Shown here: positions 12,401 to 33,741 of the stretch, in pieces
How the letters are laid out: each line of letters opens with the position of its first letter
Numbering within the stretch: the stretch's first letter is position 1
Source of the DNA: a virus
IMG/VR virus record: IMGVR_UViG_3300020459_000042
Coordinates: 1 to 33,800 of that record
Strand: one strand, 5' to 3'
Length of the DNA stretch: 33,800 bases
Position numbers and translations under genes: made by a program
Notes under the pieces: generated by a model
Told to the model about the DNA's origin: nothing
What the model saw: only the letters and a program-made list of their open reading frames with translations
The model's database searches: none

Positions 12401-15400
12401 ATCCTAATGCTCTTGATAGAACCACAGGTACATTTAAACAAGAGCACTTCTTCTCTACTTTTGAGCAATTAATATACAAACCAGACTCAAATCTTATAGG
12501 TATTGGCGGTACTGCTCTTGTATATCAAACAGGTGCAGGTGTAACTGGATATCTTCCTGACCTTGTATTTGCAATAAAGGATAATGAAGAAGAATATAGA
12601 ATAGCATTAACAAAAAATGACGCAATAGCTGGTACAGCAGTAACATTCTTACCTGACTCAGGTGCAGGTAATAAGCATAGATTCTCAATGGCAAAGAGAG
12701 ATTCTAAGTCAATGATAACTATTAGCGGTCTTGTTCAGAAACCAATAACTTATACATCGGTTAATTATGATTTACAAGTTCCTGTTGCAGGTTTTGTTAC
12801 CGCATTTGTATTAAGTGGTATTGGATCAATCTTATCTGGTGATCTTATTAGAATAGAAGATGAATATTCTATCGTAAGAAATGTTGGTGTAGGTACAACT
12901 AGTTTAGGTCCTGCGGTTGGTATAGGAACTTGGAGTCTAGTTGAAGTAGAAAGGGGTGCAGTTGGAACTGCTGCTACTCCACATGCTGCAGGAGAACCTG
13001 CTAGGATCTTTAGAGGATCATTCCAGATATTAGATAGTAATATACACTTTACACAAGCACCTCTTGGTGGTGATTTGGGTTTACTTAATCCTGGCAACTT
13101 ACCATATCCTAGAGCAACCTTTGGTGGAAGAACATTCTTAAGGCAAGATTATCTTAAGAATCAGTTATTTGATGATATATCAAATTCATTTGACGGATTA
13201 GAGACTACTTATTCATTAACCTCTGTAGGTGGAGCAGTTACTGGTATCGGTACTACAGGTGGTAACGGTGTATTATTCATCAATAATATATTCCAAGCAC
13301 CATTTAGTGAAAATAATACTGATGCAAACTTTAAAATTATAGAAAATGCGGGAATTGCTTCAGTCCAATTTACTGGTGTTAGTTCGGAAGGATTTACGAC
13401 ACCGATAATAGACATTGGTGATGTCAACGAGAACCAATTACCGAGAGGTGGAATTGTTATATCGGCAGGATCTACGCCAGGTAGAGGTTATGCTCCTTTT
13501 GTTGGTGCAAAAGTATTCCCTCAATTAGATTCTAGCGGTACTATTACTAATATTATTGGTATTCCTACCTCAGAAGGTACAGGATTCCAAATTAGCACCG
13601 CACAATATGATAATGTGACTGGTATATTATCAGTAACTACCGCAACAAATCACGGTCTTACTATTGATGATCAAATAAAACTTGTTGGATTATACTTTAC
13701 ATGTCCTAAAGACGATGTAGGAACACCCACAAACTTTGTGTACAATCCTGCAACTGGCATATCAACAGTTACTTTGAATAATCATGGATTGTCAAATGGT
13801 GATGCTATAAGTTTCAGAGCTAACTCACTGACACTTAGTTGTACAATGGGAACTGGTAATAAGACATACCCTCGTCCAACTGATCCTCTTGCAGGTAATG
13901 GTCAGTATCTAACTGTCTCTAATGTCACTACAAATACCTTTAGAGTCAATGTAGGTGCTGCAGGTAGTAATGTTTATTGGAATCCATCAGACGCAGACTA
14001 TGATCCTAATGCAGGTATCATGACAGTAACGATAGGTACACATGATCTATATGTTGGTAAGGGAGTTGTAATTCCAGACAATACATTTACATTTACTTGT
14101 TTACAAGATGGTAACACTGCACAGAAAACATATCCTCGTGCAACTGATCCAGTATCGGGTGCATCTATTAATGTTGTCGCAGTTGGAACAGCAACCGCAA
14201 ATATATCTACCGCAATTTATGATCCTACAGCAGGTATTTTAACAGCAACATCTGCAGGTCATAACCTCATGGTAGGCAACAGAATACAAATTGCGGGAGA
14301 TTCTCTAACATTTACATGCAGTAAAGATAATAACGCAACTTATCACCCATATCCTAGATTAGGTGATCCAATAAGAGATAAGTGGGTTGCGGTAGCAAGT
14401 ACAACACTCAATACATTCTCTATCAATGTAGGATCCTCTAGTGGCATATATCCTCATTATGATGCAAGTGACCATTCATTATATTCTGTTGCTACAGGTG
14501 CACTAATAAAACAGACAGGAACGATTGATCTTAATGTTGGTACAGGTGGAACTGGAACATCTGCACATACATTTGTTTCTGCTGCTACAAGTTCTGTACA
14601 GCATTTACCACAGTCAGCACATACATTTGTAAGTGCAGCAACAAATGCAGTTCAAACTCTTAACTATGTCGGTGTTACAACTAACATCTTCCCAGACTAT
14701 GATCAATCTACGGATATAACAACAATCATATCACCTACAATATTCAATACTTTTGTAGGAGCTAGCACTATACCACACACATATAATGGTGGTGGATCAC
14801 CATATGCATTCAAATATTTGGATGACTTGACATTTGGTTCAGGTTATAATCAACTCTTAGGAACAGTATCAATAGGTGTTTCTAATATTGCAGGATCGGG
14901 AGCAACTGTTACAGCAACTGTTGGTGCAGGTGGTTCATTAATCTTTAGTGTTGATCACGCAGGAACAGGATATACTAGTGGAACACAATTATTTGCTCCA
15001 GAACCATCTGGTGATTACTTAAGTATTGAAGGCACTTTCAGACAAGGACTTGGATCTACAACAACTACTGGTGTTGGTGCTTCTATTACTGTTGATGTGG
15101 TTGGACTAACAACTAATTATATTGGATATTCAACTTCACCAGAATTCCTATTATCAGAAATTTCTGAATGGACTTTATCAAAAACTGGTTATGGGTTTAG
15201 AAAAGGAGATAAATTTAATGTTGTTGGTTTATCTACAGATCCAAATGCAGGTGATTTGTTTATACCATTTGAAATTGAAGTGATTGATATATTTAATGAT
15301 GATATTGCAGCATGGCAATTTGGTAATTTAGATTATATTGATAATATCAAACCATTCCAAGATGGTAAGAGATTAAGATATCCACTATACTATCAAAACC

Positions 15401-18266: not shown

Positions 18267-21200
18267 ATGCCACAACAGACTAACCTGAACATAAGTCCTT
18301 ATTACGACGATTTTGACAGGACAGACAATTACCATAGAGTTCTGTTTAAACCAGGATTCCCAGTTCAAGCTCGTGAGTTAACGAGTCTGCAATCTATAAT
18401 GCAGAATCAGATTGAACAGTTTGGTAGTCATATGTTTAAAGAGGGGTCTGTAGTGATTCCTGGTGGTGTCAGTTATGATGGAAATTATTTTGCGGTTAGA
18501 TTGGATGCTACTCATTTAGGTACTGATGTAGAAGTTTATATAAAAGATCTTGTAGGAAAAAGAATAAAAGGACAAACATCTGGTATTACTGCAAAAATAA
18601 TCAATTGTATTACTTCAACAACTTCTATATCATCTGATCCTACATTATATGTAAAATATCTTTCACCTGGTCCTAGTGGTTCTTTTGACTTCTTCTCAGA
18701 TTCAGAATTATTATTATTGGAAGAACCAGTTACTTATGGAAATACAACTTTAAATACTGGATCAACTATCGCTTCTACTTTAGCACAAGATTCTTGTTTT
18801 TCAGGTTCAGCAGTTTCTATTAGTGATGGTGTTTATTTTGTAAGGGGAGCTTTTGTAAGAGTCAATCAACAAACTCTTATTCTTGACCAATATGACAATA
18901 AACCATTCTATAGAGTTGGTTTGCAGGTAGTTGAAAAAGCTATCAACGCTAAAGAAGATCCTTCATTATATGATAACGCAAAAGGATTTTCAAACTATGC
19001 AGCACCAGGTGCAGATAGATTAAAAATAGATTTAGTAATAACTAAAAAATCTACTAATGATTTTGACGATACTGATTTTATTGAACTTATTAGAGTAAGA
19101 GCTGGTATTGTTGAAAAGCAAATTAATAAGGAAAGTCAATATAATTTAATTAGAGATTATTTTGCAAAAAGAACTTTTGATGAGTCTGGAGATTATACAA
19201 CAACTCCATTTTTTATTAATGTTCTTGACAGTTTAAATGATAGAGTAGGTAGTGAAGGTATTTACTATGCTACCGAATCTACGAGACAGGGTAATACACC
19301 TAGTGATGATCTTGCATGTGTTAGAGTATCTCCAGGTACTGCATATGTTAAAGGATATGAATTTGAAACATTTGGAGAAACTATTGATGTAGAAAAACCT
19401 AGAACTACATCTGAAAAAATAGAAGAATCATTTTCTTTTAGAATAGGTAACAAGGTTAAACTAAATGGTGTTAGTGGTATAACAACATTTACAAATCCCA
19501 TAGATCTTCAGAGTGGTATTAGTAGTGAAAAAATTGGTGATGCTAAAGTATATAATTTTGGATTATCTGATGCAAAATATAAGGATAACTCAACAGAGTT
19601 TGATGCATACTTATATGATGTTCAATTATATACCAAATTGTTTATAAACGATACTGTTTCTAATGATGAGGTTATTCAATCTGCTTATGTAGAGGGTGCA
19701 GAAAGTGGTGCAACAGGATATACAATAGCTGCTGGTGCTGGTTCAAGTACACTTACATTAACTCAAGTATCAGGTCATTTCCAATCTGGAGAAAAAGTAA
19801 AATTTAGGAGCAATAAAAATTTATCTAGAATTGTTAGTAAAGTAATTACTTACAATTTTAATGATGTTGAAAATCTTCAACAGTCTAATACATTTTATGC
19901 CAAGAAAAAATTAAATGAAAAATTACCATATGGTTTAAGAGGGGATGATCCTGTTAGAATTGCTACTAATGGAGATGTAACTTGCACTGGTAGAACATTT
20001 GAAAGATTTAAACCTGGTAATATTATAATCTATAGAAGACCAGGTCAATCTTTACCCAATCGTAATGTAGTATCTTATGTTGCCAATGATGGTGGTAGCA
20101 TGAGACTGGCTGCATTGACAACCAATCCTGATTTATTTACTGGATCACTTCCAGGTTCTCAATATGAAGGTGCAATCTTTATAGGTGAACAGCAATTAAG
20201 TAACGAAGATGCTGCTGGTTTATTTTTACCATTACCTAAAAAGAATATTGCTGATATTGATTTTACTGGATCACAATTAATTCTTTCTGCACAAGTAACT
20301 AATGAATCTACCGATGCTAATGGAGTTCTTGTTGTCAATACAAGTTCTATCAATATTGATGATATAAACTTTATTGCATTTGATCAAGAAAGATATCAAG
20401 TACAATATGATGATGGTGAAATTGCTATTATTGATGAATCTTCGGTAGTTGTTACTGATTCAGTTTTAACTATTAATGATTTAAAATTCTCAGAATCTGG
20501 AGTTAAAGTTAATGTTACAGTTGCTAAAGGTAATATTAAAAATAAAATTAAAGAATATAAGAGAAGTCAACAAACTACTATAAAATATTCTGACAATGAT
20601 GGATCTGGATCTAATGCAAATGGTACTGTAAATGATGGATTAACACCTAGTGGTTTATATGGAATTAGAATTCAGGATGAGGAAATATGTTTGAATCATC
20701 CAGATGTTTCTGAGGTAGTTGCTGTCTATGAATCTTTAGATACAAATCTTCCTATATTTGATAAATTGGTATTTACATCAACAGATCCTATTTTTCAAAA
20801 TGCGATTGTAGGAGAAACTATTGTAGGAGAAAATACCAATTCTGTTGCAAGAATAGTATCTGTTGATTCTGGTTCAAGCAGTATTAGTATTGTATATAAA
20901 ACAATTGACAAATTCCAACTCTTAGAAACACTTTTATTCCAAGAGTCTAATACATCTGCTTCATTACAAGGTACAAGTCCTGGTAAGTATAATGATGTAA
21001 CTGATGCATTTACTTTAGATAAAGGACAGAAAGAACAGTATTATGACTATTCAAAAATATTAAGAGTTAATGATGGATATGTTCCTTCTAAACAATTGTT
21101 AGTTGTTTACGATAGATATGATATTCCTTCTTCAGATACTGGAGATGTATTTACAGTTAACAGTTATGATGCAGAAAGATTTAAAAAGAATATTCCATCA

Positions 21201-24200
21201 ATAGGTAAATCTAATAAAAGAGCAACGGATACTCTTGATTTTAGACCTAGAGTAACTACATTTGATCCTGATACTGCTTCTGTATCTCCTTTCTATCCAA
21301 CAAATAGAGACTCTATTGTTGCAGGATCTAGAATTGTAACTCCTAATGAAAGTTCTAGATTTAAGTATAAGCATTATTATGGAAGAATGGATAAGGTTGT
21401 ACTTAAAACAACAGGAAATATTATTGTACAAAAAGGAGAACCTTCTTCAAATCCAAAACCACCTGCTGACGATCCTAATGCAATGATCTTAGCCACAATT
21501 GTGTGGTCACCATATTGCTATAAGGTAAGTAATGCTAAAGTATTTTTAATTGATAATCGTAGATATACGATGCGTGATATTGGTGCTATAGAAGATAGAG
21601 TTGATAATTTAGAAAGAGTAACTTCTTTATCATTATTGGAACAAAAAGTTGCTACCTTACAGGTTAGAGATGCTGATGGATTAGATAGATTTAAGAGTGG
21701 TTTCTTTGCAGATTCTTTAAAATCTAAAGATTTTGTTGATATATCATCTCCAATAGATATTGATCTCAAAAGAGGACATATGCGTCCTTTGACTGATCTT
21801 AATTCTATTGATATGCAGGTATTGCCTTCAACGCAACAACCACCAGAATCATTAGATTTAAGTCAAAATTTTGCTTTATTGGATAGTAAAGCAAGAAAGA
21901 CAGGTAGAATGATTACCTTAGATTATAAAGAGACTGCATTTGTTGAACAAAATTTTGCAACTAGAGTAGAAAATCTTAACCCATTTTTGGTTTATAGTTA
22001 TATTGGTGATTTAAAATTAAGTCCCACTAGTGATAATTGGATCAATACTCATAGAACACAAACTCTTGCAACTCAGGTTATTAGGAGAACATCATTTGAT
22101 ACTAGAGTAGGTGCAACAACAGTTGATGATGGATTTGGACAAGATGAATTATTAGCAGAAACAAATGAATTTGTACAAAAAGTAGAAAGAGATGATATTA
22201 CATCTAGAAATACTTATATTGCAAGTGAGGAATTTGATCCATTTATTAGATCTAGAAATGTAGAATATAAAGTAACAGGATTACGACCTAATGCTAGATT
22301 CTTTACTTTCTTTGATGAACTTGGAAATGTTGATATAGTACCCAAAATTATTTCAATTAATAATGTCATTGGAGCTTTTACTATTGGTGAAACTATTACC
22401 GCATTAGTTAATGGAGAGACATATCGTTTCAGAATTGCAGCACCTAATCACAAGTCAGGACCATTTGCTACTCCTGAAGTAACATATTCAGTTAATCCAT
22501 TAGATAAGGATGATACCCTACCTGCAGCGTATTCTCAAGGTTCTACTACAATCAATATAGATACTGTTTCTCTTGCTGCTCAAGCACAGGGTGATTTCTT
22601 TGGATATCTTCCAGTAGGAACTGTTATTTCTGGTGAGACTAGTGGTGCTCAAGCAACTATAAGAGCACTAGAATTGTGGTCTGATGACTATGGTGATTTA
22701 TGTGCATGTGTATGGGTTAGAGATCCATTTGCTTCACCTGCACCTCTTGCTAGAGTAAGAACGGGTGAAAGAGAATTTAAAGTCACATCTAGTTCCATTA
22801 ATGCATCTGGATTAAGAGGAAGTACTGCTATTTCATCTGCTCAAGCAATTTACACTGCAGTTGGAACTACAAGACTCGTACAAACTGATGTTAGTGTCAC
22901 AACTTTAGAAACTACGACGATACAGAGAGATGTAAGTCTTACCTTTGTAAACCGAAGGCCGCCCCCACCACCACCACCTCCTGCCCCTGTTATCATTAAC
23001 AATACAACTGTTATTGATAATACTGTTACTAATGTTGTACAGCAAACTATTGAGATTGATAATACTCGTACTATCATTAATCCTGTACCTGTACCTGTAC
23101 CTGCACCTCCGCAGGCTGACGATAATGATGACCCATTGGCACAATCATTTAAGGTTGACCAGTATGGTGCATATGTAACTTCTGTTGATGTCTACTTTGC
23201 AACAATGGCTGATCCATCAGTTCCTGTATTTGTAGAATTAAGGACAATGGAATTAGGAACACCAACAACTAAATTGGTGTCCCCAGATTCTAGAGTTAAT
23301 TTAACATCTGTAGATATTAATCTTTCTAATGATGCCTCAGTGCCTACTAGAGCGACATTTAGTTCTCCAGTATATTTGGAACCTGCTACAGAGTATGCTA
23401 TCGTTGTAGGTGCTCCTACGAACACCTATGAAGTATTTACAGCAGAGATGGGACAAACTGCCCTCAATGCACAGCAACTTCCAAATGCTGCAGGTAAAGT
23501 TTATTCTAACCAATTCTCAGTTGGTTCTATGTTTAAGTCGCAAAATGCGTCTACATGGACTCCATGTCAATTTGAAGATTTATGTTTCAAGTTGTATAGA
23601 GCAGAATTTACTGAAAGTGATGCTGTAGTTACATTCCAAAACCCACCTATTAGACCTAATAATGGTATCTTACCAGCGTTGAATAAAAATCCAATTGAAG
23701 CACTTCCTAAGAAAGCTGCACTTGGAATTACAACAACTACTAATGCTGGTCTTATTGGTACTGTATTTACGATAGGAAGAAAGGTTGGTGACGCAAGTGC
23801 TAACTATCGATATGGATATATCGAAGCAGTTGGTGGACCAGTTCAAACTGGTGGTACTCTTGCAGTTGGTATCTCAACAAATGGTACTAACTATGGAACT
23901 CCATTATCATCGACAGTAAGCACATATGCTATTACTGGACAAGGTGCAGGATTAAAATTAGGTGTTACTGTTGGTACTGGTAATAGTGGTATTACTGCTG
24001 TTACTATTCAAGATGACGGTCAAGGATATCAAATTGGTGATATTGTAGGAATTGTTACTGCTGAAATGAGTGGTAGTGGTTCTGGAGCTAGAATTGGTAT
24101 TAATTCTCTTGGTGGATTAGATACTTTGTATCTAACAAATATTCAAGCAGAAGAATTTACTAATGCTGCAAATATCAATTATTACCATGATCTTGGAACG

Positions 24201-25592
24201 ACTATTGATTCAGGTGTAGATGTTACTAGGTATGATGAAACTGGTAGTCTCTTTACTGGTGAATATGCTAAAGTATCTTACTTCAATCATGGAATGTATG
24301 GTACTGGTAATAAGGTTGCTATTAGTGGAGTATCACCAAATACTTTACCAACTACAACTTCAACCATAGTTAATTCTACAACTAGTGCAATTGCAATTGG
24401 TGACAGTACAAGTTTTGATGTTTTTGAAGGAGTACTAGTTAGTGCTGCTAACACTGGTTATGCTATACTTAATAATGAAATAATTTCTTACACTTCTGTT
24501 GGAATCAATACTTTAAGTGGTATTGTTAGAGGTGTTGATAACACTCAATCTATTAATCATGCTCAAGGATCCAATATTCAAAAATATGAATTTGGTGGAA
24601 TTGGTTTGACTAAGATCAATACTGATCATGATGTTGAGGTTATTCAAAAGAATATGGATGATTTTATCATCAAGATTGATAGAGAAGGTAGAGTCACTGA
24701 TAACTCAGGTTTATCTCAACCACAACTATCGTTCAATAATAATATTCATGGTGGTGGAGCTCACGCTCATGCATCTAAGAATATTCAGTATGATAAGATT
24801 ACACCACTATTTGATATAACAGTACCAGGACCAACTGATACTGCTGGATTAAGTATTAGAACTGTTAGTGGAACTAGTATTGATGGTAGTGAGTCATCAT
24901 TTGCTGATCAAGGATTTGACAATTATGTACTCAACCAACCTACAAAACTTCCAACTACAAGAATAGTTGCTTCTGAAGTTAATGAAAATGTAAGGTTAAC
25001 TAATCTCTTTAGAAATAGATCTTTAACTGCTAGAGTGTCAATGAATAATGGAGGGAATTTCCATAGTTCTCCTATGATTTGTTTGGATACAATGGCAATT
25101 AATTTCTCTTCCAATAGACTTAATAAACCAATTGCAGAGGATGCATATGCTTTAGATCCAAGATCTAATGTTTTATTTGGTGATCCTCATACTTCATATT
25201 ATGTTTCTAGAGTTATCAACATTAAACAACCAGCGACTTCATTACAAGTTATCTTAGATGCATTTAGACCAACATCTACTGATTTCAGAGTTCTGTATAG
25301 TCTTATTAGAGGAGACTCTAGTGAGGTAGATCAGAAATTTGTATTGTTCCCTGGCTATCTAAATAGTGTTGATACCACTGGTGATGGGTTTGGAGATACT
25401 GCAATCGATCCTTCCAAGAACGATGGTCGTGCTGACAAATTCGTCAATTCTGGTGGAGACTTCAGAGAGTATCAATACTCTGTTAATGACTTAGAACCTT
25501 ATACTGGTTTTGTTATTAAGATTGTATTTAATGGTACTAATCAAGCTGAAGTTCCTGTTCTTAGAAACATTAGGGCATTAGCACTTGCATGA
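18267..25592 (+). CDS. 2441-residue virion protein with DUF4815-type N-terminus (gp9/gp10 position)
   Basis: The N-terminus (NISPYYDDFDR, then KPGFPVQARELTSLQSIMQN) is the DUF4815-type start seen in many marine T4-like phages. Around 315-375 lies a conserved SEGIYYATES...DDLACVRVSPGTAYVKGYEFET segment. A heptad stretch at about 1098-1140 (IEDRVDNLERVTSLSLLEQKV) predicts a short coiled coil. Eight consecutive prolines (1565-1572), an Asn/Thr/Val-rich stalk and a VPVPVPAPP hinge lead into DDPLAQSF (about 1621-1628) and a probable beta-sandwich. The C-terminal third has a GQGY bead pair, a NEIISYT...RG module at 2070-2090, HASKNIQYD, and a compact ending. Position after gp8 matches T4 gp9/gp10, so a role at the wedge periphery or fibre attachment is likely. 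This is synteny, not demonstrated homology. Confidence 0.8.
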   Translation: MPQQTNLNISPYYDDFDRTDNYHRVLFKPGFPVQARELTSLQSIMQNQIEQFGSHMFKEGSVVIPGGVSYDGNYFAVRLDATHLGTDVEVYIKDLVGKRIKGQTSGITAKIINCITSTTSISSDPTLYVKYLSPGPSGSFDFFSDSELLLLEEPVTYGNTTLNTGSTIASTLAQDSCFSGSAVSISDGVYFVRGAFVRVNQQTLILDQYDNKPFYRVGLQVVEKAINAKEDPSLYDNAKGFSNYAAPGADRLKIDLVITKKSTNDFDDTDFIELIRVRAGIVEKQINKESQYNLIRDYFAKRTFDESGDYTTTPFFINVLDSLNDRVGSEGIYYATESTRQGNTPSDDLACVRVSPGTAYVKGYEFETFGETIDVEKPRTTSEKIEESFSFRIGNKVKLNGVSGITTFTNPIDLQSGISSEKIGDAKVYNFGLSDAKYKDNSTEFDAYLYDVQLYTKLFINDTVSNDEVIQSAYVEGAESGATGYTIAAGAGSSTLTLTQVSGHFQSGEKVKFRSNKNLSRIVSKVITYNFNDVENLQQSNTFYAKKKLNEKLPYGLRGDDPVRIATNGDVTCTGRTFERFKPGNIIIYRRPGQSLPNRNVVSYVANDGGSMRLAALTTNPDLFTGSLPGSQYEGAIFIGEQQLSNEDAAGLFLPLPKKNIADIDFTGSQLILSAQVTNESTDANGVLVVNTSSINIDDINFIAFDQERYQVQYDDGEIAIIDESSVVVTDSVLTINDLKFSESGVKVNVTVAKGNIKNKIKEYKRSQQTTIKYSDNDGSGSNANGTVNDGLTPSGLYGIRIQDEEICLNHPDVSEVVAVYESLDTNLPIFDKLVFTSTDPIFQNAIVGETIVGENTNSVARIVSVDSGSSSISIVYKTIDKFQLLETLLFQESNTSASLQGTSPGKYNDVTDAFTLDKGQKEQYYDYSKILRVNDGYVPSKQLLVVYDRYDIPSSDTGDVFTVNSYDAERFKKNIPSIGKSNKRATDTLDFRPRVTTFDPDTASVSPFYPTNRDSIVAGSRIVTPNESSRFKYKHYYGRMDKVVLKTTGNIIVQKGEPSSNPKPPADDPNAMILATIVWSPYCYKVSNAKVFLIDNRRYTMRDIGAIEDRVDNLERVTSLSLLEQKVATLQVRDADGLDRFKSGFFADSLKSKDFVDISSPIDIDLKRGHMRPLTDLNSIDMQVLPSTQQPPESLDLSQNFALLDSKARKTGRMITLDYKETAFVEQNFATRVENLNPFLVYSYIGDLKLSPTSDNWINTHRTQTLATQVIRRTSFDTRVGATTVDDGFGQDELLAETNEFVQKVERDDITSRNTYIASEEFDPFIRSRNVEYKVTGLRPNARFFTFFDELGNVDIVPKIISINNVIGAFTIGETITALVNGETYRFRIAAPNHKSGPFATPEVTYSVNPLDKDDTLPAAYSQGSTTINIDTVSLAAQAQGDFFGYLPVGTVISGETSGAQATIRALELWSDDYGDLCACVWVRDPFASPAPLARVRTGEREFKVTSSSINASGLRGSTAISSAQAIYTAVGTTRLVQTDVSVTTLETTTIQRDVSLTFVNRRPPPPPPPPAPVIINNTTVIDNTVTNVVQQTIEIDNTRTIINPVPVPVPAPPQADDNDDPLAQSFKVDQYGAYVTSVDVYFATMADPSVPVFVELRTMELGTPTTKLVSPDSRVNLTSVDINLSNDASVPTRATFSSPVYLEPATEYAIVVGAPTNTYEVFTAEMGQTALNAQQLPNAAGKVYSNQFSVGSMFKSQNASTWTPCQFEDLCFKLYRAEFTESDAVVTFQNPPIRPNNGILPALNKNPIEALPKKAALGITTTTNAGLIGTVFTIGRKVGDASANYRYGYIEAVGGPVQTGGTLAVGISTNGTNYGTPLSSTVSTYAITGQGAGLKLGVTVGTGNSGITAVTIQDDGQGYQIGDIVGIVTAEMSGSGSGARIGINSLGGLDTLYLTNIQAEEFTNAANINYYHDLGTTIDSGVDVTRYDETGSLFTGEYAKVSYFNHGMYGTGNKVAISGVSPNTLPTTTSTIVNSTTSAIAIGDSTSFDVFEGVLVSAANTGYAILNNEIISYTSVGINTLSGIVRGVDNTQSINHAQGSNIQKYEFGGIGLTKINTDHDVEVIQKNMDDFIIKIDREGRVTDNSGLSQPQLSFNNNIHGGGAHAHASKNIQYDKITPLFDITVPGPTDTAGLSIRTVSGTSIDGSESSFADQGFDNYVLNQPTKLPTTRIVASEVNENVRLTNLFRNRSLTARVSMNNGGNFHSSPMICLDTMAINFSSNRLNKPIAEDAYALDPRSNVLFGDPHTSYYVSRVINIKQPATSLQVILDAFRPTSTDFRVLYSLIRGDSSEVDQKFVLFPGYLNSVDTTGDGFGDTAIDPSKNDGRADKFVNSGGDFREYQYSVNDLEPYTGFVIKIVFNGTNQAEVPVLRNIRALALA

Positions 25593-25786
25593 TAAGAGTT
25601 GAAGGACACGCAAATCTCTTTAGAGATGAGAAAACTGGAGCTATCATAAATGATGATAGCTCTGGTTATTCTGCTTATATAAAAGCAAAATCTAAAAAAG
25701 CTATGGAGAGAGAAGAATTGGATGCAATGAAAGATGAGATAACTGAAATTAAAAATATGCTTAAAGAAATCACATCCAAATTATGA
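25589..25786 (+). CDS. Small 65-residue protein with C-terminal coiled coil
   Basis: The start overlaps the stop of the 2441-residue gene (ATGATAA), implying translational coupling. Residues 1-20 read MIRVEGHANLFRDEKTGAII, a start I recall in small proteins of T4-like marine phages without known function. Residues about 33-65 form a clear amphipathic heptad helix (AMEREELDAMKDEITEIKNM, then LKEITSKL). Its codons 15-26 contain a strong inverted repeat. Possible roles are fibre folding helper or virion linker; both are inferred from size, coiled coil and position. Confidence 0.7.
   Translation: MIRVEGHANLFRDEKTGAIINDDSSGYSAYIKAKSKKAMEREELDAMKDEITEIKNMLKEITSKL
25633..25667 (+). other. Intragenic hairpin, 15-bp stem with 5-base loop
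   Basis: GAGCTATCAT (25638-25647) and ATGATAGCTC (25653-25662) are perfect complements around the loop AAATG. The stem extends outward by two G-T wobbles and then C-G, A-T and A-T pairs to 25633 and 25667. It lies inside the 65-residue gene, about 45 bases after its start. No T-tract follows, so it is not a standard intrinsic terminator. Confidence 0.75.
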
Positions 25787-25971
25787 GAGATCCACATATA
25801 GAACACTTAAGATTTCTTCACGGTGATGAATGTGTACCTACAAAAGTTGCCGAATTAGGTGACCTTGAAATTATAAGAAATGACATAGATCGATTAGATA
25901 ATAAAATGAGTCAGGTAACTCAAGTGTTGCAAGAACTTCTAACAGAGATAAAGAAACTAAATACCTTATAG
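25783..25971 (+). CDS. Small 62-residue coiled-coil protein
   Basis: The ATG overlaps the previous stop in an ATGA junction. The N-terminal half (DPHIEHLRFLHGDECVPTKV) contains His and one Cys and shows no recognised motif. From about residue 27 onward the hydrophobic heptads IIRNDIDRLDNKMSQVTQVL and QELLTEIKKLNTL predict a coiled coil. With the preceding 65-residue protein it makes a coupled pair of small coiled-coil products just ahead of the fibre genes. T4 gp57A, a 79-residue coiled-coil fibre chaperone, is an analogy of size and shape only. Confidence 0.65.
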   Translation: MRDPHIEHLRFLHGDECVPTKVAELGDLEIIRNDIDRLDNKMSQVTQVLQELLTEIKKLNTL

Positions 25972-25991: not shown

Positions 25992-26333
25992 ATGGCAGTA
26001 TATGTCTCTAACTTACAGATTGAACAAGGTTCTGATTTTGAGCATTTATTTTCTCTAGGTGATAACGATAATAATACTACCTTGGATCTGACTGGATACA
26101 GTGTCGCTTCTAAGCTCCGTAAATGGGCTGGAAGTACTACAGCTTATTCCTTCACATCATCTGTCTCTAGTGCTACAGATGGTCAGATTACTATATCTAT
26201 GACCGATAGCACAACAAATACCATCAAACCAGGAAGGTACATATATGATGTTGTTTTGACAGAATCTTCTTCGGGTCTCAAAACGAGAGTTGTTGAAGGT
26301 CAAGTCCTAGTTAGACAAGGGGTAACAAGGTAA
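25992..26333 (+). CDS. 113-residue Ig-like virion protein
   Basis: The sequence is all beta in pattern: a QIEQGSDFEHLFSL strand, LDLTGYSVASKLRKW, then DGQITISMTDSTTNTIKPG and RYIYDVVLTESS, ending VVEGQVLVRQGVTR. This arrangement resembles the small Ig-like domain found at the N-terminus of BppU-type baseplate proteins and in short virion proteins of marine phages. It is probably a small decoration or adaptor of the fibre apparatus. It follows a 20-base gap after the coiled-coil pair, the only uncoupled junction in this cassette, and overlaps the next gene by one base. Confidence 0.7.
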   Translation: MAVYVSNLQIEQGSDFEHLFSLGDNDNNTTLDLTGYSVASKLRKWAGSTTAYSFTSSVSSATDGQITISMTDSTTNTIKPGRYIYDVVLTESSSGLKTRVVEGQVLVRQGVTR

Positions 26334-26551
26334 TGCCATCATTAAGAATTGGTACTGGCAGCCAAGTAAAGGTTATTGCCAGCGGCTCTTTAGGAGGCGG
26401 TAGTGGAGGTGGAGGTAAACTAGTTTTACTTTCAGATGTTAATGCTTCTACTTTAAACAATGGTAGTTTCTTAGTTTATGACTCAGCAACTGCTAAGTTT
26501 ATAACACAAACTAATTTACCATCTACTACTATTGATGGAGGGGAATACTAA
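26333..26551 (+). CDS. 72-residue glycine-rich protein ending in IDGGEY
   Basis: The start overlaps the previous stop (TAATG). After MPSLRIGTGSQVKVIASG comes a flexible GSLGGGSGGGG linker, then LLSDVNASTLNNGSFLVYDS and ATAKFITQ, a short beta module that recurs in phage fibre proteins (DLxDVxxxxxxxGxxLVYxxxTxKF). The C-terminus is STTIDGGEY, which matches the C-terminal IDGGFF of the 2396-residue fibre protein. It is likely a small fibre-associated protein. The codons for the DGG motif supply the Shine-Dalgarno sequence of the next gene. Confidence 0.65.
   Translation: MPSLRIGTGSQVKVIASGSLGGGSGGGGKLVLLSDVNASTLNNGSFLVYDSATAKFITQTNLPSTTIDGGEY
26537..26541 (+). promoter_or_regulatory. Shine-Dalgarno GGAGG for the fibre gene, inside the preceding coding end
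   Basis: GGAGG, extended to GGAGGGG, lies nine bases before the ATG at 26551. Most genes in this window lack an obvious Shine-Dalgarno, so this one stands out. It encodes the Gly-Gly of the terminal IDGGEY. Confidence 0.8.
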
Positions 26552-29500
26552 TGTCGGCAACGATTCTATTAAAAAGAACTAAAGGAACTTCGCCTCCTAC
26601 CGCAGCACCAGTTGGAACTGGTGTATCTTTCGGTGAATTAGTATACACCTATGATATTACAAATGTAGGTGCAGGTAAGTCTTATAAAAAATTATATATT
26701 GGTCATCCAGACGGTAATACAAATGCTCCAATAGCAATCGGTGGTGAATATTACACCGATATGTTACCAGAGAACCCTGCTGACTTTGGTAAGCCAACTG
26801 GATCTAAGGCAGTTATTCTTAACCCCTCAGGACAGATCAACACCTGGAGTGTCGCTACAGACCTTCTAGTAGGTGCTGCAGCCACTGTATCAGGTAATCT
26901 ATCTGTTGCTGGTAATCTTGATGTTACAGGCGATTTAACATATGATGAAGTAAATGCAAGAAACTGGAATATAACTGGTGTAGGTACTATTCCTACTCTC
27001 TATGTAACTGATATTACTGACACTCTTAATCTACAAAGTAAGGTAGGTATTATCAGTGCTCTTGCTGGTGTTGGTGCTACATATAACGATTTTAATTCTA
27101 CATCTGCACAGTTTGAGCAGATTAATGTAAGTCATGCATCTACTACTAAGAACCTTACGGTTACTGGTATTGCAACTATTGAAGATAATGTAGACTTCAG
27201 AACGCAGTTAATAAGAATTGGTAGAGAAGCAGGTGAACTAGAAACTGATGGTACTGATCGTCAGGGGTTCTTTATTGGTAACTGGGCTGGTCAACAAGCT
27301 GGTTTAGGTAATAACACTAAGAGAAACATTGCTATTGGTCACAGTGCCTTCCAGAAGGGTGGTAAGACTAAGGCAGAATCCAATTTATTCTTAGGTCATT
27401 TTGCTGGACAAGAAGCAGAAGGATCACATAACATCTATATTGGTGATAAGGTTGGACAGGATTTAGGTTCACAGTCTGTTATCACTTATGGTGAGACTGG
27501 TAATGCCAGCACCATTTCATTCTCTGATGGTAGTTCATTAGGTAATGATCCATATGCTTACAGAGTATATGGTACTACAGATAATTTCTCCAACTTACAA
27601 GGTGGAGATTGGGCGTTTGAGATATCACAACTTGGTGATCTTGGTACAATTAACAGTGCTGTTACTGGCAACCTATCATTTAACATTGGTACTTGTACTA
27701 ATGCTCATCTAGGAAAATTAATTGGTCAGCAGTTTAAAGTAAAAGGACAAGACAATTTTGCTTTATTGACTGACAATAATGATGCTATTTACCTGTCAGG
27801 TGGTAGTATTGGATTAACAGATACTTATGGTTTCATAGTTGTTAGATCTGGTATCACAACAAATAGTGGTAAGGAAGATCACGATCAGAACATTGGTATA
27901 GGTAGAGAAGCACTATGGGGTGCTGGTATATCAACTAACCAGAGCAACAACATTGCTATTGGTGCGTTTGCTTTATATAATGTTTATGGTAGTGATAATG
28001 TTGCTATTGGTAATTCTGCTGGTGCTAATAATACTGGTAGTAACAATGTTATTATTGGTAAAGGACAAGATGTTAGATATCCAGATCAAGATGATCAGTT
28101 AGTTATTGGTTCAGGTGATGTTAAGTGGGTTTCAGGTAATAGCGACGGTTGGGTCGGGGTGGGAACTACCACGCCAACAGCGTTACTCGATGTAGATGGT
28201 GATGTCAATATAACTGGTGTTGCTACTGTTCCTCAGTTAGATGTTAATAATCTTGGTATAGAAGACATTAAGATTACTGCTGGTTTAGCAACTGACTTAG
28301 CAGTTACTAATTTAGTCAACTCGGTTGGTATCATTACTAATGCCTACATTGATGTAGGTGTTGTAACATCATTAGTTGGTACTTATGCAACTATAACAGT
28401 ATTTGACACTGAGACTGCAGATCTTAGAGATGTTAAAATAACTGCTGGTATCATAACAGATATTGTTGGTACTGCTGCTACAATCACTACGATTGATGCT
28501 ACTGTAACTGACATTATACATGGTAATATTGTTGCTGGTGTTATCACATCGATAACTGGTATCTATGCAACCATTACTAATTTTGACACTGAATTAGCAG
28601 ACCTTAAGGATGTTAAGATCACTTCTGGTATCATTACTGATATCGTTGGTACTGCAGCAACTATAACAACAATTGATGCTACAGAAGGAGATATAGTTAA
28701 TGCTAAGATCACTGCAGGTATTATTACATCACAAGTTGGTACTTACGCAACTATAACAGTATTTGATACAGAAACAGCAGATCTTAGAGATGTTAAGATA
28801 ACTGCTGGTATCATAACAGATATTGTTGGTACAGCAGCAACTATCACAACTATCGATGCCACAGAAGGCGACATAGTTAATGCTAAGATAACTGCTGGTG
28901 TTGTTACATCATTAGTTGGTACATATTCAACAATTCAAGATGTAAATATTACTCACGACTTTAGAGTTGGTGGTGCATCAACATTCGTTGGTAATGTTAC
29001 TTTCCAAGGTGGTGTAATTGGTCTTGGTGATTCTACTAGTGATGCTATTGTATTCAATGCTGACATTGATTCAAGTTTCATTCCTGATGATGACGATACC
29101 TATAACCTTGGTGCTGCTACTCAACAGTGGAAAGATCTTCATATTGATGGCACTGCTTATATTGATGATCTAAGTGTCGATTCAACAGTTGGTGTTTATG
29201 CAACTATAACAACTTTTGACACAGAAACTGCAGACCTTAAGGATGTTAAGATTACCTCTGGTATTATCACAGACATAGTTGGTACTGCTGCTACAATCAC
29301 TACGATTGATGCTACGGAAGGTGATATAGTAAATGCTAAGATTACTGCTGGTGTTGTAACATCGATAGTTGGTACTTATGCAACTATAACAAACTTTGAT
29401 ACTGAGACTGCAGACCTTAAGGATGTTAAGATTACTGCAGGTATCATAACTGATATCGTTGGTACTGCTGCATCTATCACTACAATTGATGTAACAGAAG

Positions 29501-32500
29501 GAGATATAGTTAACGCTAAAATTACTGCTGGTGTTATCACATCTATAGTTGGTACTTATGGTACTATTACGACTCTTGATGTAGAGACATTAGATGCTCA
29601 ATCATTAAGCATTACTGGTGTTGCTGCTACTGATATCGTTGGTACTGCTGCGTCAATCACAACGATTGATGTCACCAACATGGATGTCAATGATGTTAAG
29701 GTACTTGCTGGTTTAGCAACTGACTTTGCGATTACTAACCTTGTAACTCAGGTTGGTATTGCTACATCTGCATTCATAACATCTGGTTTTATGACATCAC
29801 TATACGACTCCACTGGAGTTGTTGGTGTTAATACTCAGCATGTATTAAGTACTAATACTGATGGTACTATCACTTGGCGTGAACCTGCTCAAGTTGGTAT
29901 TGCTACTGTTAACCCTGCTGATGATGTATGGTTTGTTGACACACATGGTGTTGATGCTTATGATGCGTCTCGTGGTCGTACTGTTGATAGACCTTTCAGA
30001 TCGATTAGATACGCTTTATCAAGAATTTCTAATAGGTATGAGCATACCTACAATGGTGGTACTGCTACAAACGCAGTTAATGTTCAAAGTGGTGCTGAGT
30101 CAGGTAATCAAAAATCTCCTAATGGAGCAACTTATAATGAGCAAACTGGAGAGTTAACTCTAGCATTTGGATCTGCTCACGGATTATCAACGAACGATAC
30201 AATTACTCTTGATAACAATTCATTATCATTCACCTGTACGATGGATGGTAATACTGCAAGTAAGACTTATCCTCGTGCTGGTAGTGATCCTATTGCTGGT
30301 GTAACAACTGCTGTTACAGTACTTGATTCAACTTCATTTAGAATTAATGTTAATGTCTCTCCTACAATCATAGGTGTTAATGAAACATTGAATATTGGTG
30401 GTGGTGTTTATGAAGAATCATTCCCATTATATGTTCCTGCAGGATTAACTGTTAAAGGTAACGGTCTTCGTGCTACTAAGATTGTTCCAACAAGTGCTAC
30501 TAAGCAAAAGGATTGTTTCCTACTTAATGATAGAACAGTCGTTGAAGACTTAACTATCGCTGACATGTTCTTCAACACATCAGCAAATGAAGGATACGCA
30601 TTTAAGTATGAACCTGGTATTGCAATTACTACTAGATCACCTTATGTACAGCGTATAACTGTATTAAACAAAGGTACTAATCAAACTGCAGATGATTTAT
30701 ACGGATTTAACAGTGCTGATGCAGCTCCATCTTCTTACATAGCTGGTGCTGGTGCATATATCGATGGTTCTCAGGTTCAAGAAGGATCTATTGAAGCAGC
30801 AATGTTATTCAATGAAGCAACCTTCATTGTACCTAATGCTAAAGGTCTAGTAATGACCAACGGAGCTCGTGTTGAGTTCCTTAACTGTTTCACATACTTT
30901 GCTTCTGAAGGTATTAGAGGTGAATCTGGTACACTCGGTATTGCATCTGCTGGTAAGACAAGATTAAGATTAACTGGTATTACTACAACATCAATGCTAG
31001 GCATTGGTAATACAATTACTTACTATGACACTGATGGTGTTACTGGATTAGGTACTGCTGTTGTAGCTAACTACGATGGTACATATCTTGATGTAAGTGG
31101 TAAGCAACTTGGATTTGAAATTCTTCAAAATAGAACTGCTAAAACACTTACATTTAATGGTAATGCACAATTAGATACCAGTGTTAAGAAGTTTGGTAGT
31201 GCGTCACTTAAATTAGATGGTACTAACGATTCTGTTAGTGCAGCATCTCACGATCAGTTTGGATTTGGTACAGGAGAATTTGCTGTTGGTTTCTGGGTTT
31301 ACAGAAACACTACTGGATTAACTAGTGCTACTGCTATTGACTTTAGGGATTCAGGAACTGATGCAAGTGGTTTAAGTATTGCCTTCAGAGGTAATGAATA
31401 TGATGTTCGTGTTGGAAACACTACAGCATTATCGGCTACTAGTGCAGGTATTACAACTGGTGCATGGCATCACATTGCTGTTGCTAAGTTAGGTACAAAA
31501 TTAATAGCATATTCTAATGGTGCTAAGAGAGCTGAAGCAACATCATATACTACTGATCTTGGTACACAAAAACCTATTGTAATTGGTGCTGACTTTGATG
31601 GTGCTGCTAATGCACATACAGGTTGGATAGATGATGTATTTGTTCAGAAAGGATTGCATTCATTCCCAGATGGTGCATATACTTATGGTAATAGTGCTGA
31701 GGCTGCTGGTAATAGAAAGACTTCATTACTAGTTAACTTTAACGGAACTAACGGTGTCTCAACTGCTACTGATAATACAGTAGTTACTCAGGACATCAGA
31801 ATTACTCAACCTAACAGTGGAGTAGGAACTGCTACTAGGATAACCTTAGCAGATTACAGTCAGTTTGGTGCTGACATGCGTTCTGTGGGTTGTGCTGTTG
31901 AGTACGGTCAGAAGGGTGTTGTTGCTGATGGTGATGGTGTAACACTAAGATGTTTTGCACTTAATTTCAACCATGTTGGTGCTGGTGGAAATATTAATAA
32001 CGATCCTAACACAGCAATCCAAGCAAACGAAGTCACTCAAGTTAATAACGGTGACATATCATTCGTTAGTATTGATCAGAAAGGAGACTTTAGAGTTGGT
32101 GATGCATTCTATGTTGACCAAGAAAATGGTACAGTTGCATTCTCTCAACAGGTAACAAGTTTACAGGCTTTATCTAATCTAACTATCTCAGATTCTTCTG
32201 GTAATAGTAGTCAGGTAACACCTACTAGTGGTACATTTGGTAATATCCAGATTGCTGGTAATAATATTGAATCAACCTCAGGTGATATTAATATTGACCC
32301 TGCTGGTGCTGGTGATGTTAATATTACTGGTGATGTCAATGTCTTAGGTATCTTAACTGCTACAACTATTCAACTGGATGCATTCCAGAAGGGTGATACA
32401 TCTATTGCTTTAACTGATAGTGGTAGTGATGGTACTATTGTAGCTAGCACTGAGAATGTAGAAGCATGGCGTGTTGACGCTAACCAGAAAGTTGGTATTC

Positions 32501-33741
32501 GTACTGACTCACCTAGAGATAGATTAGATGTTTTAGACACTGCTAGATTTGAAAGAATCAACGCTACAGGCGTTGTAACAGTTAGTAGTAGTGCAGATGT
32601 TAATAACCTTGATGTAGTAGATGCTAGGATCGCTACAGGTCTTGCTACAGCATTCACAGTTGGTCAGACTGTTGGTGATGGATCATTAACAATTAATGCT
32701 CCTGTTGGACTTAACAGTCACACAGATCTCCCAGATAATGTTAAGGTAAGAATTGGTTCAGATGATGACTTAACTGTTGAACATGTTGATACAGATGGAT
32801 TTGCTAACAGAGGTCATACAGTCCTCTCTCATGCAAATGGTAATGCAACATATAGCAGACTTCAAATAAGAAGTGATTACTTTAGTGTACAGACTGCTGC
32901 TGGTAGCAGCGACTTCTTAACTGTCGATAATAAGACACTTAAGTTAATGTATGCTGATAGTTCAGCTTCTGGTATCGGTGATAGATTGATTGTTAGAGCA
33001 TCTGGTTCAGAGATGCTTGGTATTGTTACCTTTAAGGATAACGGTGTTTATAAAGGTGAAGTTGCAATTGGTTCTTCTATAACAGCAACTGCTGGTGTAG
33101 TAACTGCTAATGCAGTTGACCTTGCTGATGCTGATATTCTTGACGCTAAGATCACTGCTGGTTTAGCAACTGATTTTGCAATAACTAATGCCAGAATTCA
33201 AACTGGTATTGCTACTGAAATGACCTTCGCTGGTTTTTCAACTTTCGTTGGTATAGCAACATTCCAAGATGATATCTTTATCGCTGGTAACTTAAATGTT
33301 ATTGGTGATGTTGTTTATGATGAAGTTAATGGTAGAAACATTAATGTAACTGGAATTAGTACTTTTAATGAAGTTATTATTACTGGTGTAGCTACAGTTT
33401 CTAACATAAAAATTGGTGCTGGTAGTTCTGCTACTAAGATTGAAACTAATAGTGGAGAGTTAGTTCTAGATTCTGCTGCTGGTCAAGTTACTATTCAAGA
33501 CAATGTACATGTCGTAGGATATGCTACATTTAAACAAGGATTATACTATCGCTCAGATCAAGGGGGAAGCACAGGTATAGGATATAGTGGTCCTAACGGT
33601 GTTGCTTACTTTGAAGATGATGGTAGGTTGGTAAGTACAGCAAGCACAGTTGGATTCCTAACTACTTCTAACTATGTAATGACTACAAACGCTTCTGGAG
33701 TTCCGCAATGGACTAACTCCATCGATGGAGGATTCTTCTAA
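26551..33741 (+). CDS. 2396-residue modular tail-fibre-like protein
   Basis: Order of modules: N-terminal SATILLKRTKG and FGELVYTYD (1-30); GNLDVTGDLTYDEVN bead near 125; NIAIG/AG repeats (about 224-306 and 446-519) split by an unmatched insert; a VGVGTTTP..LLDVDGD motif (about 534-552); a 60-residue-period repeat array (about 627-1047) interrupted by an IIPD-type bead (SFIPDDDDTYNLG near 842); a parallel beta-helix start DVWFVDTHG...PFRSIRYAL (about 1125-1160); a TFTC/YPR unit (about 1195-1270); FPLYVPAGLTVKGNGLRATKI; a LamG-like sandwich (about 1530-1735); DGDGVTLRCF (about 1792); VGIRTDSPRDRLDVLD (about 1981); and a second YDEVN bead before ASGVPQWTNSIDGGFF. No S74 chaperone domain is visible. 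Probably a trimeric fibre contacting the host; the receptor is unknown. Confidence 0.85.
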   Translation: MSATILLKRTKGTSPPTAAPVGTGVSFGELVYTYDITNVGAGKSYKKLYIGHPDGNTNAPIAIGGEYYTDMLPENPADFGKPTGSKAVILNPSGQINTWSVATDLLVGAAATVSGNLSVAGNLDVTGDLTYDEVNARNWNITGVGTIPTLYVTDITDTLNLQSKVGIISALAGVGATYNDFNSTSAQFEQINVSHASTTKNLTVTGIATIEDNVDFRTQLIRIGREAGELETDGTDRQGFFIGNWAGQQAGLGNNTKRNIAIGHSAFQKGGKTKAESNLFLGHFAGQEAEGSHNIYIGDKVGQDLGSQSVITYGETGNASTISFSDGSSLGNDPYAYRVYGTTDNFSNLQGGDWAFEISQLGDLGTINSAVTGNLSFNIGTCTNAHLGKLIGQQFKVKGQDNFALLTDNNDAIYLSGGSIGLTDTYGFIVVRSGITTNSGKEDHDQNIGIGREALWGAGISTNQSNNIAIGAFALYNVYGSDNVAIGNSAGANNTGSNNVIIGKGQDVRYPDQDDQLVIGSGDVKWVSGNSDGWVGVGTTTPTALLDVDGDVNITGVATVPQLDVNNLGIEDIKITAGLATDLAVTNLVNSVGIITNAYIDVGVVTSLVGTYATITVFDTETADLRDVKITAGIITDIVGTAATITTIDATVTDIIHGNIVAGVITSITGIYATITNFDTELADLKDVKITSGIITDIVGTAATITTIDATEGDIVNAKITAGIITSQVGTYATITVFDTETADLRDVKITAGIITDIVGTAATITTIDATEGDIVNAKITAGVVTSLVGTYSTIQDVNITHDFRVGGASTFVGNVTFQGGVIGLGDSTSDAIVFNADIDSSFIPDDDDTYNLGAATQQWKDLHIDGTAYIDDLSVDSTVGVYATITTFDTETADLKDVKITSGIITDIVGTAATITTIDATEGDIVNAKITAGVVTSIVGTYATITNFDTETADLKDVKITAGIITDIVGTAASITTIDVTEGDIVNAKITAGVITSIVGTYGTITTLDVETLDAQSLSITGVAATDIVGTAASITTIDVTNMDVNDVKVLAGLATDFAITNLVTQVGIATSAFITSGFMTSLYDSTGVVGVNTQHVLSTNTDGTITWREPAQVGIATVNPADDVWFVDTHGVDAYDASRGRTVDRPFRSIRYALSRISNRYEHTYNGGTATNAVNVQSGAESGNQKSPNGATYNEQTGELTLAFGSAHGLSTNDTITLDNNSLSFTCTMDGNTASKTYPRAGSDPIAGVTTAVTVLDSTSFRINVNVSPTIIGVNETLNIGGGVYEESFPLYVPAGLTVKGNGLRATKIVPTSATKQKDCFLLNDRTVVEDLTIADMFFNTSANEGYAFKYEPGIAITTRSPYVQRITVLNKGTNQTADDLYGFNSADAAPSSYIAGAGAYIDGSQVQEGSIEAAMLFNEATFIVPNAKGLVMTNGARVEFLNCFTYFASEGIRGESGTLGIASAGKTRLRLTGITTTSMLGIGNTITYYDTDGVTGLGTAVVANYDGTYLDVSGKQLGFEILQNRTAKTLTFNGNAQLDTSVKKFGSASLKLDGTNDSVSAASHDQFGFGTGEFAVGFWVYRNTTGLTSATAIDFRDSGTDASGLSIAFRGNEYDVRVGNTTALSATSAGITTGAWHHIAVAKLGTKLIAYSNGAKRAEATSYTTDLGTQKPIVIGADFDGAANAHTGWIDDVFVQKGLHSFPDGAYTYGNSAEAAGNRKTSLLVNFNGTNGVSTATDNTVVTQDIRITQPNSGVGTATRITLADYSQFGADMRSVGCAVEYGQKGVVADGDGVTLRCFALNFNHVGAGGNINNDPNTAIQANEVTQVNNGDISFVSIDQKGDFRVGDAFYVDQENGTVAFSQQVTSLQALSNLTISDSSGNSSQVTPTSGTFGNIQIAGNNIESTSGDINIDPAGAGDVNITGDVNVLGILTATTIQLDAFQKGDTSIALTDSGSDGTIVASTENVEAWRVDANQKVGIRTDSPRDRLDVLDTARFERINATGVVTVSSSADVNNLDVVDARIATGLATAFTVGQTVGDGSLTINAPVGLNSHTDLPDNVKVRIGSDDDLTVEHVDTDGFANRGHTVLSHANGNATYSRLQIRSDYFSVQTAAGSSDFLTVDNKTLKLMYADSSASGIGDRLIVRASGSEMLGIVTFKDNGVYKGEVAIGSSITATAGVVTANAVDLADADILDAKITAGLATDFAITNARIQTGIATEMTFAGFSTFVGIATFQDDIFIAGNLNVIGDVVYDEVNGRNINVTGISTFNEVIITGVATVSNIKIGAGSSATKIETNSGELVLDSAAGQVTIQDNVHVVGYATFKQGLYYRSDQGGSTGIGYSGPNGVAYFEDDGRLVSTASTVGFLTTSNYVMTTNASGVPQWTNSIDGGFF
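28429..29691 (+). repeat. 180-base coding repeat array in the fibre gene (two 90-base half units)
   Basis: DVK codons begin at 28429, 28609, 28789 and again at 29242 and 29422, exactly 180 bases apart inside each cluster; a degenerate unit starts at 29602. Each 60-residue period has two related halves, DVKITAGIITDIVGTAATIT and NAKITAGVVTSxVGTYATIT. A different module interrupts the array at about 28945-29180. Copies differ mainly at synonymous sites. Confidence 0.9.
30133..30360 (+). repeat. TFTC/YPR module shared with the giant gp7-position gene
   Basis: Residues about 1195-1270 of the fibre protein read YNEQTGELTLAFGSAHGLST, then SLSFTCTMDGNTASKTYPR and SFRINVN. The module order and key residues match the array at 13606-14440, while the DNA is divergent. 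It sits between the PFRSIRYALSRI strand and the NETLNIGGGVYEESFPL strand of the beta-helix region. Confidence 0.75.
33727..33731 (+). promoter_or_regulatory. Shine-Dalgarno GGAGG for the gp13-like gene, inside the fibre gene end
   Basis: GGAGG lies nine bases before the ATG at 33741 and encodes the Gly-Gly of the terminal IDGGFF. Context and spacing repeat those at 26537-26551. Confidence 0.8.

Follow-up and report, generated by a model that had tools for sequence, protein, structure and literature searches.

Background

In the IMG/VR virus record IMGVR_UViG_3300020459_000042, two small genes with a four-base overlap lie between a giant baseplate-type gene and a fibre module. What are their products for, and do they act together? 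We call these products P1 (65 amino acids) and P2 (62 amino acids). The stretch analysed here, called the window, spans the entire record (33,800 bases); judged from its gene content, it is part of a T4-like genome of the cyanophage type. A first-pass annotation had taken the two genes as one coupled pair encoding candidate fibre chaperones or linkers. Trimeric fibres generally rely either on a chaperone domain or on a separate chaperone, and in T4 the small protein gp57A is required for gp12, gp34 and gp37 and is absent from the particle (PMC3004832). Phages without gp57A must fold their fibres by other means.

Our preferred reading, which is tentative and to which we give a little less than an even chance, is that P1 and P2 belong to two separate units and stand side by side at their border. 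P1 would be an assembly partner of the DUF4815 baseplate protein encoded immediately upstream, and P2 would be an exchangeable fibre helper. The P1 family has already been annotated, without a function; its link to the DUF4815 gene and its spread to Ackermannviridae are new here. DUF4815 is a baseplate protein common among large myophages, and a small protein tied to it offers an inexpensive co-expression test.

Results and discussion

P1 and P2 as genes and predicted structures

The lengths of both products and the ATGA overlap between their genes were confirmed from the sequence (Table 1). The proposed C-terminal heptad helix of each product also held up, both in a shuffle test and in AlphaFold monomer models. 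Read from the sequence, the heptad hydrophobic residues are L44, M47, I51, I54, L58, I61 and L65 in P1, and L28, I31, I35, L38, M42, V45, L49, L52, I56 and L59 in P2. The observed a/d contrast of the C-terminal segments, which were picked post hoc after inspection, was reached by 1 (P1) and 3 (P2) of 20,000 shuffles. Among 44 pieces of the window that resemble open reading frames (ORFs) of 40-90 amino acids, P2 ranks first in this contrast and P1 second. The P1 model (mean predicted local distance difference test score, pLDDT, 94.5) has strands at residues 10-12 and 19-21, which form a hairpin, and a helix at 24-64; that of P2 (pLDDT 83.2) has helices at 4-13 and 27-60.

Both behave as real genes under purifying selection, with more synonymous than non-synonymous changes per site. 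The uncorrected ratio of non-synonymous to synonymous changes (pN/pS) against five relatives is 0.23-0.64 for P1 and 0.09-0.51 for P2.

P1 accompanies the DUF4815 gene

P1 belongs to the family phrog_473, named T4-GC112 in the P-SSM2 and S-PM2 records, and shares with that family its location after the DUF4815 gene. At E <= 1, tblastn located P1 in 114 phage records, almost all from cyanophages. It also hit 104 IMG/VR stretches, and the locus counts use the best 80 of these. Together with four named phages and the window, these make a set of 85 loci with 71 distinct P1 sequences. In 67 aligned sequences, I2, G6, L10, R12, D13, E14, T16, G17, A18, I19, I20, D23 and K55 are invariant, and all of these except K55 lie in or adjoin the hairpin.

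A relative of the DUF4815 gene of the window stands immediately 5' of P1 in 76 of the 85 loci (76 of 83 testable, window included). In seven of the other nine, a short open frame (63-98 codons) stands directly 5' of P1; the remaining two loci are too short to judge. P-SSM2 is among the seven: its DUF4815 gene is present, and two small genes separate it from P1. The spacing between the DUF4815 gene and P1 in the 76 loci is -4 in 48, -1 in 19 and another value in 9.

We then surveyed 21 DUF4815-type phages, in which the gene was recognised via Pfam, PHROG or blastp to the window protein. They comprise ten cyanophages, Nitratidesulfovibrio phage SRB7757, Vibrio phage K475, Pseudomonas phage pf16, Sinorhizobium phage phiM12, Stenotrophomonas phage DLP_6, Acidovorax phage ACP17, the Ackermannviridae Mooltan and Kuja, and three Herelleviridae. 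In every one of the 21, an ORF of 56-82 amino acids lies 3' of the DUF4815 gene, with intervening genes in P-SSM2 and DLP_6. In whole-genome profile scans, 17 of the 21 gave a significant P1 match in this slot: the phrog_473 profile matched it in 11 of 11 phages (E <= 4e-8), and the P1 profile A1 in six of the remaining ten (E <= 0.0013). The same scans gave no P1 slot match in ACP17, whose slot ORF is a weak P1 match missed by the genome-wide A1 scan, or in the three Herelleviridae. The Herelleviridae slot ORFs (LSA2308, 56 amino acids; SBSphiJ1, 56; Ef2.3, 68) look alike by eye, and we accept them as positional counterparts only; the A1 profile matches LSA2308 (E 0.018) and Ef2.3 (E 0.022) weakly and outside the slot, and SBSphiJ1 has no match. 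T4 has no match to phrog_473, the A1 profile or DUF4815. In DLP_6 (L112:7001-14142), the DUF4815/VlrC protein is split over two successive ORFs of 1824 and 555 amino acids, and P1 follows the second.

The DUF4815 protein is homologous to ORF65, PDB chain 9euf_0 (E 1.9e-37). Its first 411 residues match 1194 phage records; in 519 the match covers at least 80%. VrlC has been described as a component of two-layered baseplates, with a variable host-recognition cluster directly after it (PMC7029224). P1 also occurs without a long fibre gene after it, in S-SKS1 and, by position, in ACP17. The idea of one coupled pair is not supported: P1 follows the DUF4815 gene with or without P2 or a long fibre gene.

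P2 and other small families in its slot

Searches with P2 gave nothing in Pfam at E <= 1, nothing in the phages collection at E <= 0.1, and a PHROG match no better than E 0.019. In all 20 related IMG/VR loci, several of which are near-identical contigs, P1 overlaps P2 at -4 and is followed by ORFs of 111-113 and 70-72 amino acids; the fibre is complete in 11 of the 20, at 1781-2447 amino acids.

To compare loci with and without P2, we took the biggest ORF starting within 1.5 kb 3' of P1 in 84 of the 85 loci (in the other, P1 extends past the end of the locus), and tolerated starts up to 40 nucleotides before the P1 stop. All of these counts concern related phages and are not independent events. 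The slot is of P2 type in 14 loci, 12 of them measurable: one large ORF is complete (2396 amino acids, the window), and eleven are incomplete at lower bounds of at least 486-1418. No overlapping or abutting second ORF is present in 54 of the 84 loci (37 measurable, 17 too short), and the next ORF is then 279-726 amino acids in 36 of the 37. The remaining one, of 1251 amino acids in S-PM2, begins 23 nucleotides before the P1 stop. Downstream ORFs near 280-292 amino acids are probably the neck gene gp13 and hence no fibre. An unrelated slot ORF of 56-60 amino acids, of the phrog_27081 kind, occurs in 16 of the 84 loci, and the next ORF, complete in all of them, is 280-567 amino acids. ORFs resembling phrog_27081 were seen in 15 IMG/VR loci.

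A different small coiled-coil family, phrog_580, directly follows P1 in 80 of 80 IMG/VR loci, these being the best 80 of 235. Among the 77 that are measurable (three have little downstream DNA), the large ORF reaches at least 1000 amino acids in 63, of which 52 attain at least 1500; in 13 it is cut off short of 1000, and just two ORFs are complete, at 964 and 1543. The next large ORF is 2073 amino acids in S-SZBM1, 1584 in S-CREM1 and 2228 in S-ShM2. In MED4-213, the phrog_580 gene sits in another fibre region. Like P2, phrog_580 is small and stands between P1 and mostly giant fibres, so that the two are positional counterparts; however, they have no detectable sequence relation (hhalign 0.6%; P2 has no phrog_580 match at E <= 1). 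Also unlike P2 loci, S-SZBM1, S-CREM1 and S-ShM2 lack LtfC-like and 72-amino-acid genes before the fibre.

These comparisons of gene content suggest that the P2 family, which is in neither Pfam nor PHROGs, travels with the giant fibre as part of the fibre module. The earlier statement that the pair precedes the fibre module calls for two corrections: P2 accompanies giant fibres, but P1 is linked to the gene before it and not to the fibre, and two genes, for proteins of 113 and 72 amino acids, intervene before the 2396-residue protein. If P2 and phrog_580 proteins are indeed fibre helpers, they would mark giant cyanophage fibres and enable their expression, which is relevant to marine host-range studies.

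Virion proteomes

Published proteomes bear on whether P1 remains in the particle. They concern P1 homologues, and none is from a phage that carries the P2 family. The virion table of S-SZBM1 (PMC9146016), obtained by mass spectrometry, has 30 proteins, including the DUF4815 protein (53 peptides), the 2073-residue fibre (25 peptides) and a protein of only 87 amino acids. SSZBM1_202 (P1) and SSZBM1_201 (phrog_580) are unlisted there; their expected tryptic peptides of 7-30 residues number six and four. The S-CREM2 virion table (PMC10665884, Table 3) gives 450 unique peptides for ORF124 and 6 for ORF126 and lacks ORF125, which we equate with P1 from the gene order of S-CRM01. In LIMEstone1 (PMC3296691), ORF157 has 21 peptides and ORF154 is listed as well; the P1 homologue ORF156 is absent from the table. 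In the table for ISP (PMC3170307), Gp36, which is ORF65 of phage K, has 33 peptides, and Gp37, at most a putative P1 homologue, is absent. In Sajous1 (PMC10892097), gp140 has 311 spectra, against 2 for "gp142 putative virion structural protein". The proteome of phage AG3, limited to six gel bands, is uninformative on P1, as is the CBA120 virion account, which names no such ORF.

The Sajous1 labels differ between sources (L243:11889-12462). The paper calls gp142 structural, whereas GenBank gives that label to gp141, which is P1, and calls gp142 hypothetical; because of this, the "gp142" of the paper could denote either protein. A related discrepancy affects other P1 homologues: several RefSeq records label them "virion structural protein", and the GenBank originals label them hypothetical. 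That label may have been propagated rather than measured.

As to the expectation that the small proteins would be absent from virions, three proteome tables do not list the P1 homologue (that of S-CREM2 being assigned from gene order), and Sajous1 is ambiguous. Overall, P1 is absent or far below DUF4815, which leans, short of proof, toward a role in assembly.

Comparison with gp57A, gp11 and solved structures

P1 and P2 resemble gp57A (PF17594, phrog_1002) in being coiled-coil proteins below 90 amino acids and candidate helpers of trimeric fibres. They differ from it in genomic position, and they have no sequence relation to it: neither has a gp57A match in Pfam or PHROG at E <= 1, and hhalign probabilities are 2.2% (P1) and 0.7% (P2). 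Therefore, any likeness is one of kind and not of descent. A dedicated gp57A homologue elsewhere would have spoken against a helper role, and the relatives scanned yielded no convincing one. The Pfam model matched only T4 among 12 genomes, and the PHROG model gave a convincing E value only in T4 among 22 genomes, with none in the 21 DUF4815 phages. Weak phrog_1002 matches in SRB7757 (E 0.003), S-CREM1 (E 0.03) and SBSphiJ1 (E 0.008) were taken as chance, because Bacillus and Haloferax controls also give matches. We also considered whether phrog_580 is a diverged gp57A, since a motif is similar by eye; an hhalign probability of 0.2% ruled this out. As the first-pass annotation had noted, the 2396-residue protein has no visible self-cleaving chaperone domain, since Pfam at E <= 0.01 gave only Laminin_G_3.

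Searches against solved structures yielded no accepted relative. The best match of the P1 profile is a designed repeat protein (E 0.0054, with no single stretch significant), and the remainder are mostly coiled coils. ORF67 of the DUF4815 phage came up at E 2.6, aligned by its C-terminal helix, and we did not count this as homology. P2 matched mostly leucine-rich-repeat proteins (best E 0.0038), which we judged to be chance. Foldseek with the P1 model returned 18 structures, all with E above 0.001, VIA reached a Z of 3.5 at best, and the 56-residue slot ORF of a Silviavirus relative had no convincing PDB match (best E 0.062). Literature titles and abstract openings retrieved for DUF4815, VrlC and gp57A described fibre chaperones of other phages and nothing on the P1, P2 or phrog_580 families.

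Proposed roles and alternatives

P1 is probably made in step with the DUF4815 protein, because the two genes overlap, the P1 start lying on the DUF4815 stop codon. The P1 hairpin would most likely grip the nascent or oligomerising DUF4815 chain, and the heptad helix may form an oligomeric stalk. P1 might afterwards depart or remain at low copy, as is weakly suggested by virion proteomes in which DUF4815 is abundant and P1 absent or scarce. P2, as a putative member of the fibre module, would be exchanged along with the fibre. Its slot and size, its heptads and its occurrence together with giant fibres lead us to infer that P2 most likely acts as gp57A does, though unrelated to it, by preventing aggregation of giant fibre monomers and aiding their trimerisation.

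Several observations weigh against this reading. Mass spectrometry found just 24 of 32 predicted structural proteins in S-SZBM1, and it misses small proteins: ORF67 of phage K is a chain in solved structures, yet Gp39, its positional equivalent in ISP, does not appear in the ISP virion table. P1 may be present in the Sajous1 virion at a low level, and both PHROG and RefSeq label P1 "virion structural protein". As for P2, the 1251-residue gene of S-PM2 comes directly after P1 with no P2, a phrog_580 gene being at the far end of the module, and in phiM12 a 901-residue fibre gene adjoins P1, again with no P2. The association of P2 with giant fibres may also mean no more than that related phages inherited one linked module.

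A different role for P1 would be that of a tiny virion clip, a short coiled coil whose hairpin docks on DUF4815 and fixes the outer baseplate arm or the fibre to it, its gene occupying the position of T4 gp11, between gp10 and gp12. We consider this doubtful, but a serious contender. The S-CRM01 gene order (gp8-like, DUF4815, P1, gp12-like fibre) parallels 8-9-10-11-12 of T4, so that P1 has a similar relative position to gp11; the hairpin is very strongly conserved; and, besides the database labels, there are the 2 spectra of Sajous1 gp142 (or gp141). However, P1 is unlisted in the S-SZBM1, S-CREM2 and LIMEstone1 virion tables though its neighbours are listed, it has no Pfam GP11 match at E <= 1, and the slot ORF is present even where gp13 is directly next (ACP17). 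The gp11 gene is also much larger, at 660 nucleotides.

The proposal that P1 and P2 form a single hetero-oligomeric fibre chaperone draws on the overlap kept in all 20 P2 loci and on the long heptad helices of both proteins. We now regard it as very improbable. P1 goes with DUF4815 and not with the fibre, 54 of 84 P1 loci have no adjoining second small ORF (5 of these have less than 250 nucleotides after P1), 16 have an unrelated one, and phrog_580 occupies the slot elsewhere. An obligate form in particular is unlikely because P2 is so often absent beside P1 and unrelated families (phrog_580, phrog_27081) take its place.

A competing candidate for fibre assembly, on the basis of profile matches, is the 113-residue LtfC-like protein. 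It matches phrog_3304 (E 1.7e-29) and phrog_1084 (E 7.5e-29), as well as Pfam LtfC at E 5.1e-5, below the curated cut-off. Were it the assembly factor, P2 could be a linker or minor subunit joining the giant fibre to the baseplate. Such genes recur behind P1 or P2 in other cyanophages, and LtfC-like genes stand after P1 even without P2 in S-SKS1 and MED4-213 (by annotation) and in Bellamy (by profile). However, S-CREM2 ORF127 (112 amino acids), whose LtfC identity is assumed from its region, has one peptide in the virion table, which would suit a structural part better than a chaperone. We think this arrangement improbable.

Returning to P1 as a DUF4815 partner and P2 as a fibre helper, a broader generalisation can be drawn, although we judge it unlikely as it stands. 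DUF4815-baseplate phages may carry two tiers of tiny coiled-coil chaperones: a near-universal and ancient P1 type, translated at or just after the DUF4815 stop and including its counterparts in Ackermannviridae and perhaps in Herelleviridae, and an exchangeable type swapped with the fibre, which would comprise P2, phrog_580 and perhaps further families. If so, fibre-chaperone families unrelated to gp57A would serve some of the longest ocean phage fibres.

Other features of the window

Coordinates are collected in Table 1. Rfam and tRNA scans of the window gave no matches.

Table 1. Features of the window, and examples of other small ORFs in the P2 slot of related loci (aa, amino acids)
Feature	Coordinates	Strand	Basis or remark
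gp25-like gene	starts 1087		first in the tail-gene order of the window
gp6-like gene	starts 1499
4407-aa ORF	3424-16647		between gp6-like and gp8-like genes
gp8-like gene	starts 16685
Giant baseplate-type protein, 2441 aa, DUF4815 (PF16075) / phrog_358 / "VrlC"	18267..25592	+	Pfam E 4.5e-55; putative upstream partner of P1
ATGA overlap, DUF4815-gene stop / P1 start	25589..25592	+	sequence
P1, 65 aa, phrog_473 / T4-GC112 family	25589..25786	+	phrog_473 E 2.8e-19, residues 1-65
P1 N-terminal beta-hairpin, residues 10-21 (LFRDEKTGAIIN), conserved	25616..25651	+	AlphaFold strands; invariant residues
P1 C-terminal heptad helix, residues 24-64	25658..25780	+	AlphaFold model; heptad test
ATGA overlap, P1 stop / P2 start	25783..25786	+	sequence
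P2, 62 aa, separate family (alignment A2)	25783..25971	+	20 related IMG/VR loci
P2 C-terminal heptad helix, residues 27-60	25861..25962	+	AlphaFold; heptad test
113-aa LtfC-like beta-sandwich protein, phrog_3304 "L-shaped tail fiber protein assembly"	25992..26333	+	PHROG/Pfam
72-aa Gly-rich protein, phrog_13853, fibre-module member	26333..26551	+	E 3.6e-15
2396-aa giant fibre-like protein, Laminin_G_3 domain	26551..33741	+	Pfam; PHROG relatives labelled "baseplate wedge subunit"
phrog_580 examples	L092:9725-9940, L097:9721-9918, L117:17124-17366		P2-slot position
phrog_27081 ORFs, 58-59 aa	L004:9188-9364, L096:9200-9379		overlap the P1 end in S-SRM01 and Bellamy

The 2396-residue fibre contains many similar internal repeats (for example, VGTAATITTIDATEGDIVNAKITAG), and its Laminin_G_3 domain lies at residues 1556-1698. 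The 4407-residue ORF occupies the position at which T4 has gp7, a protein of about 1030 amino acids.

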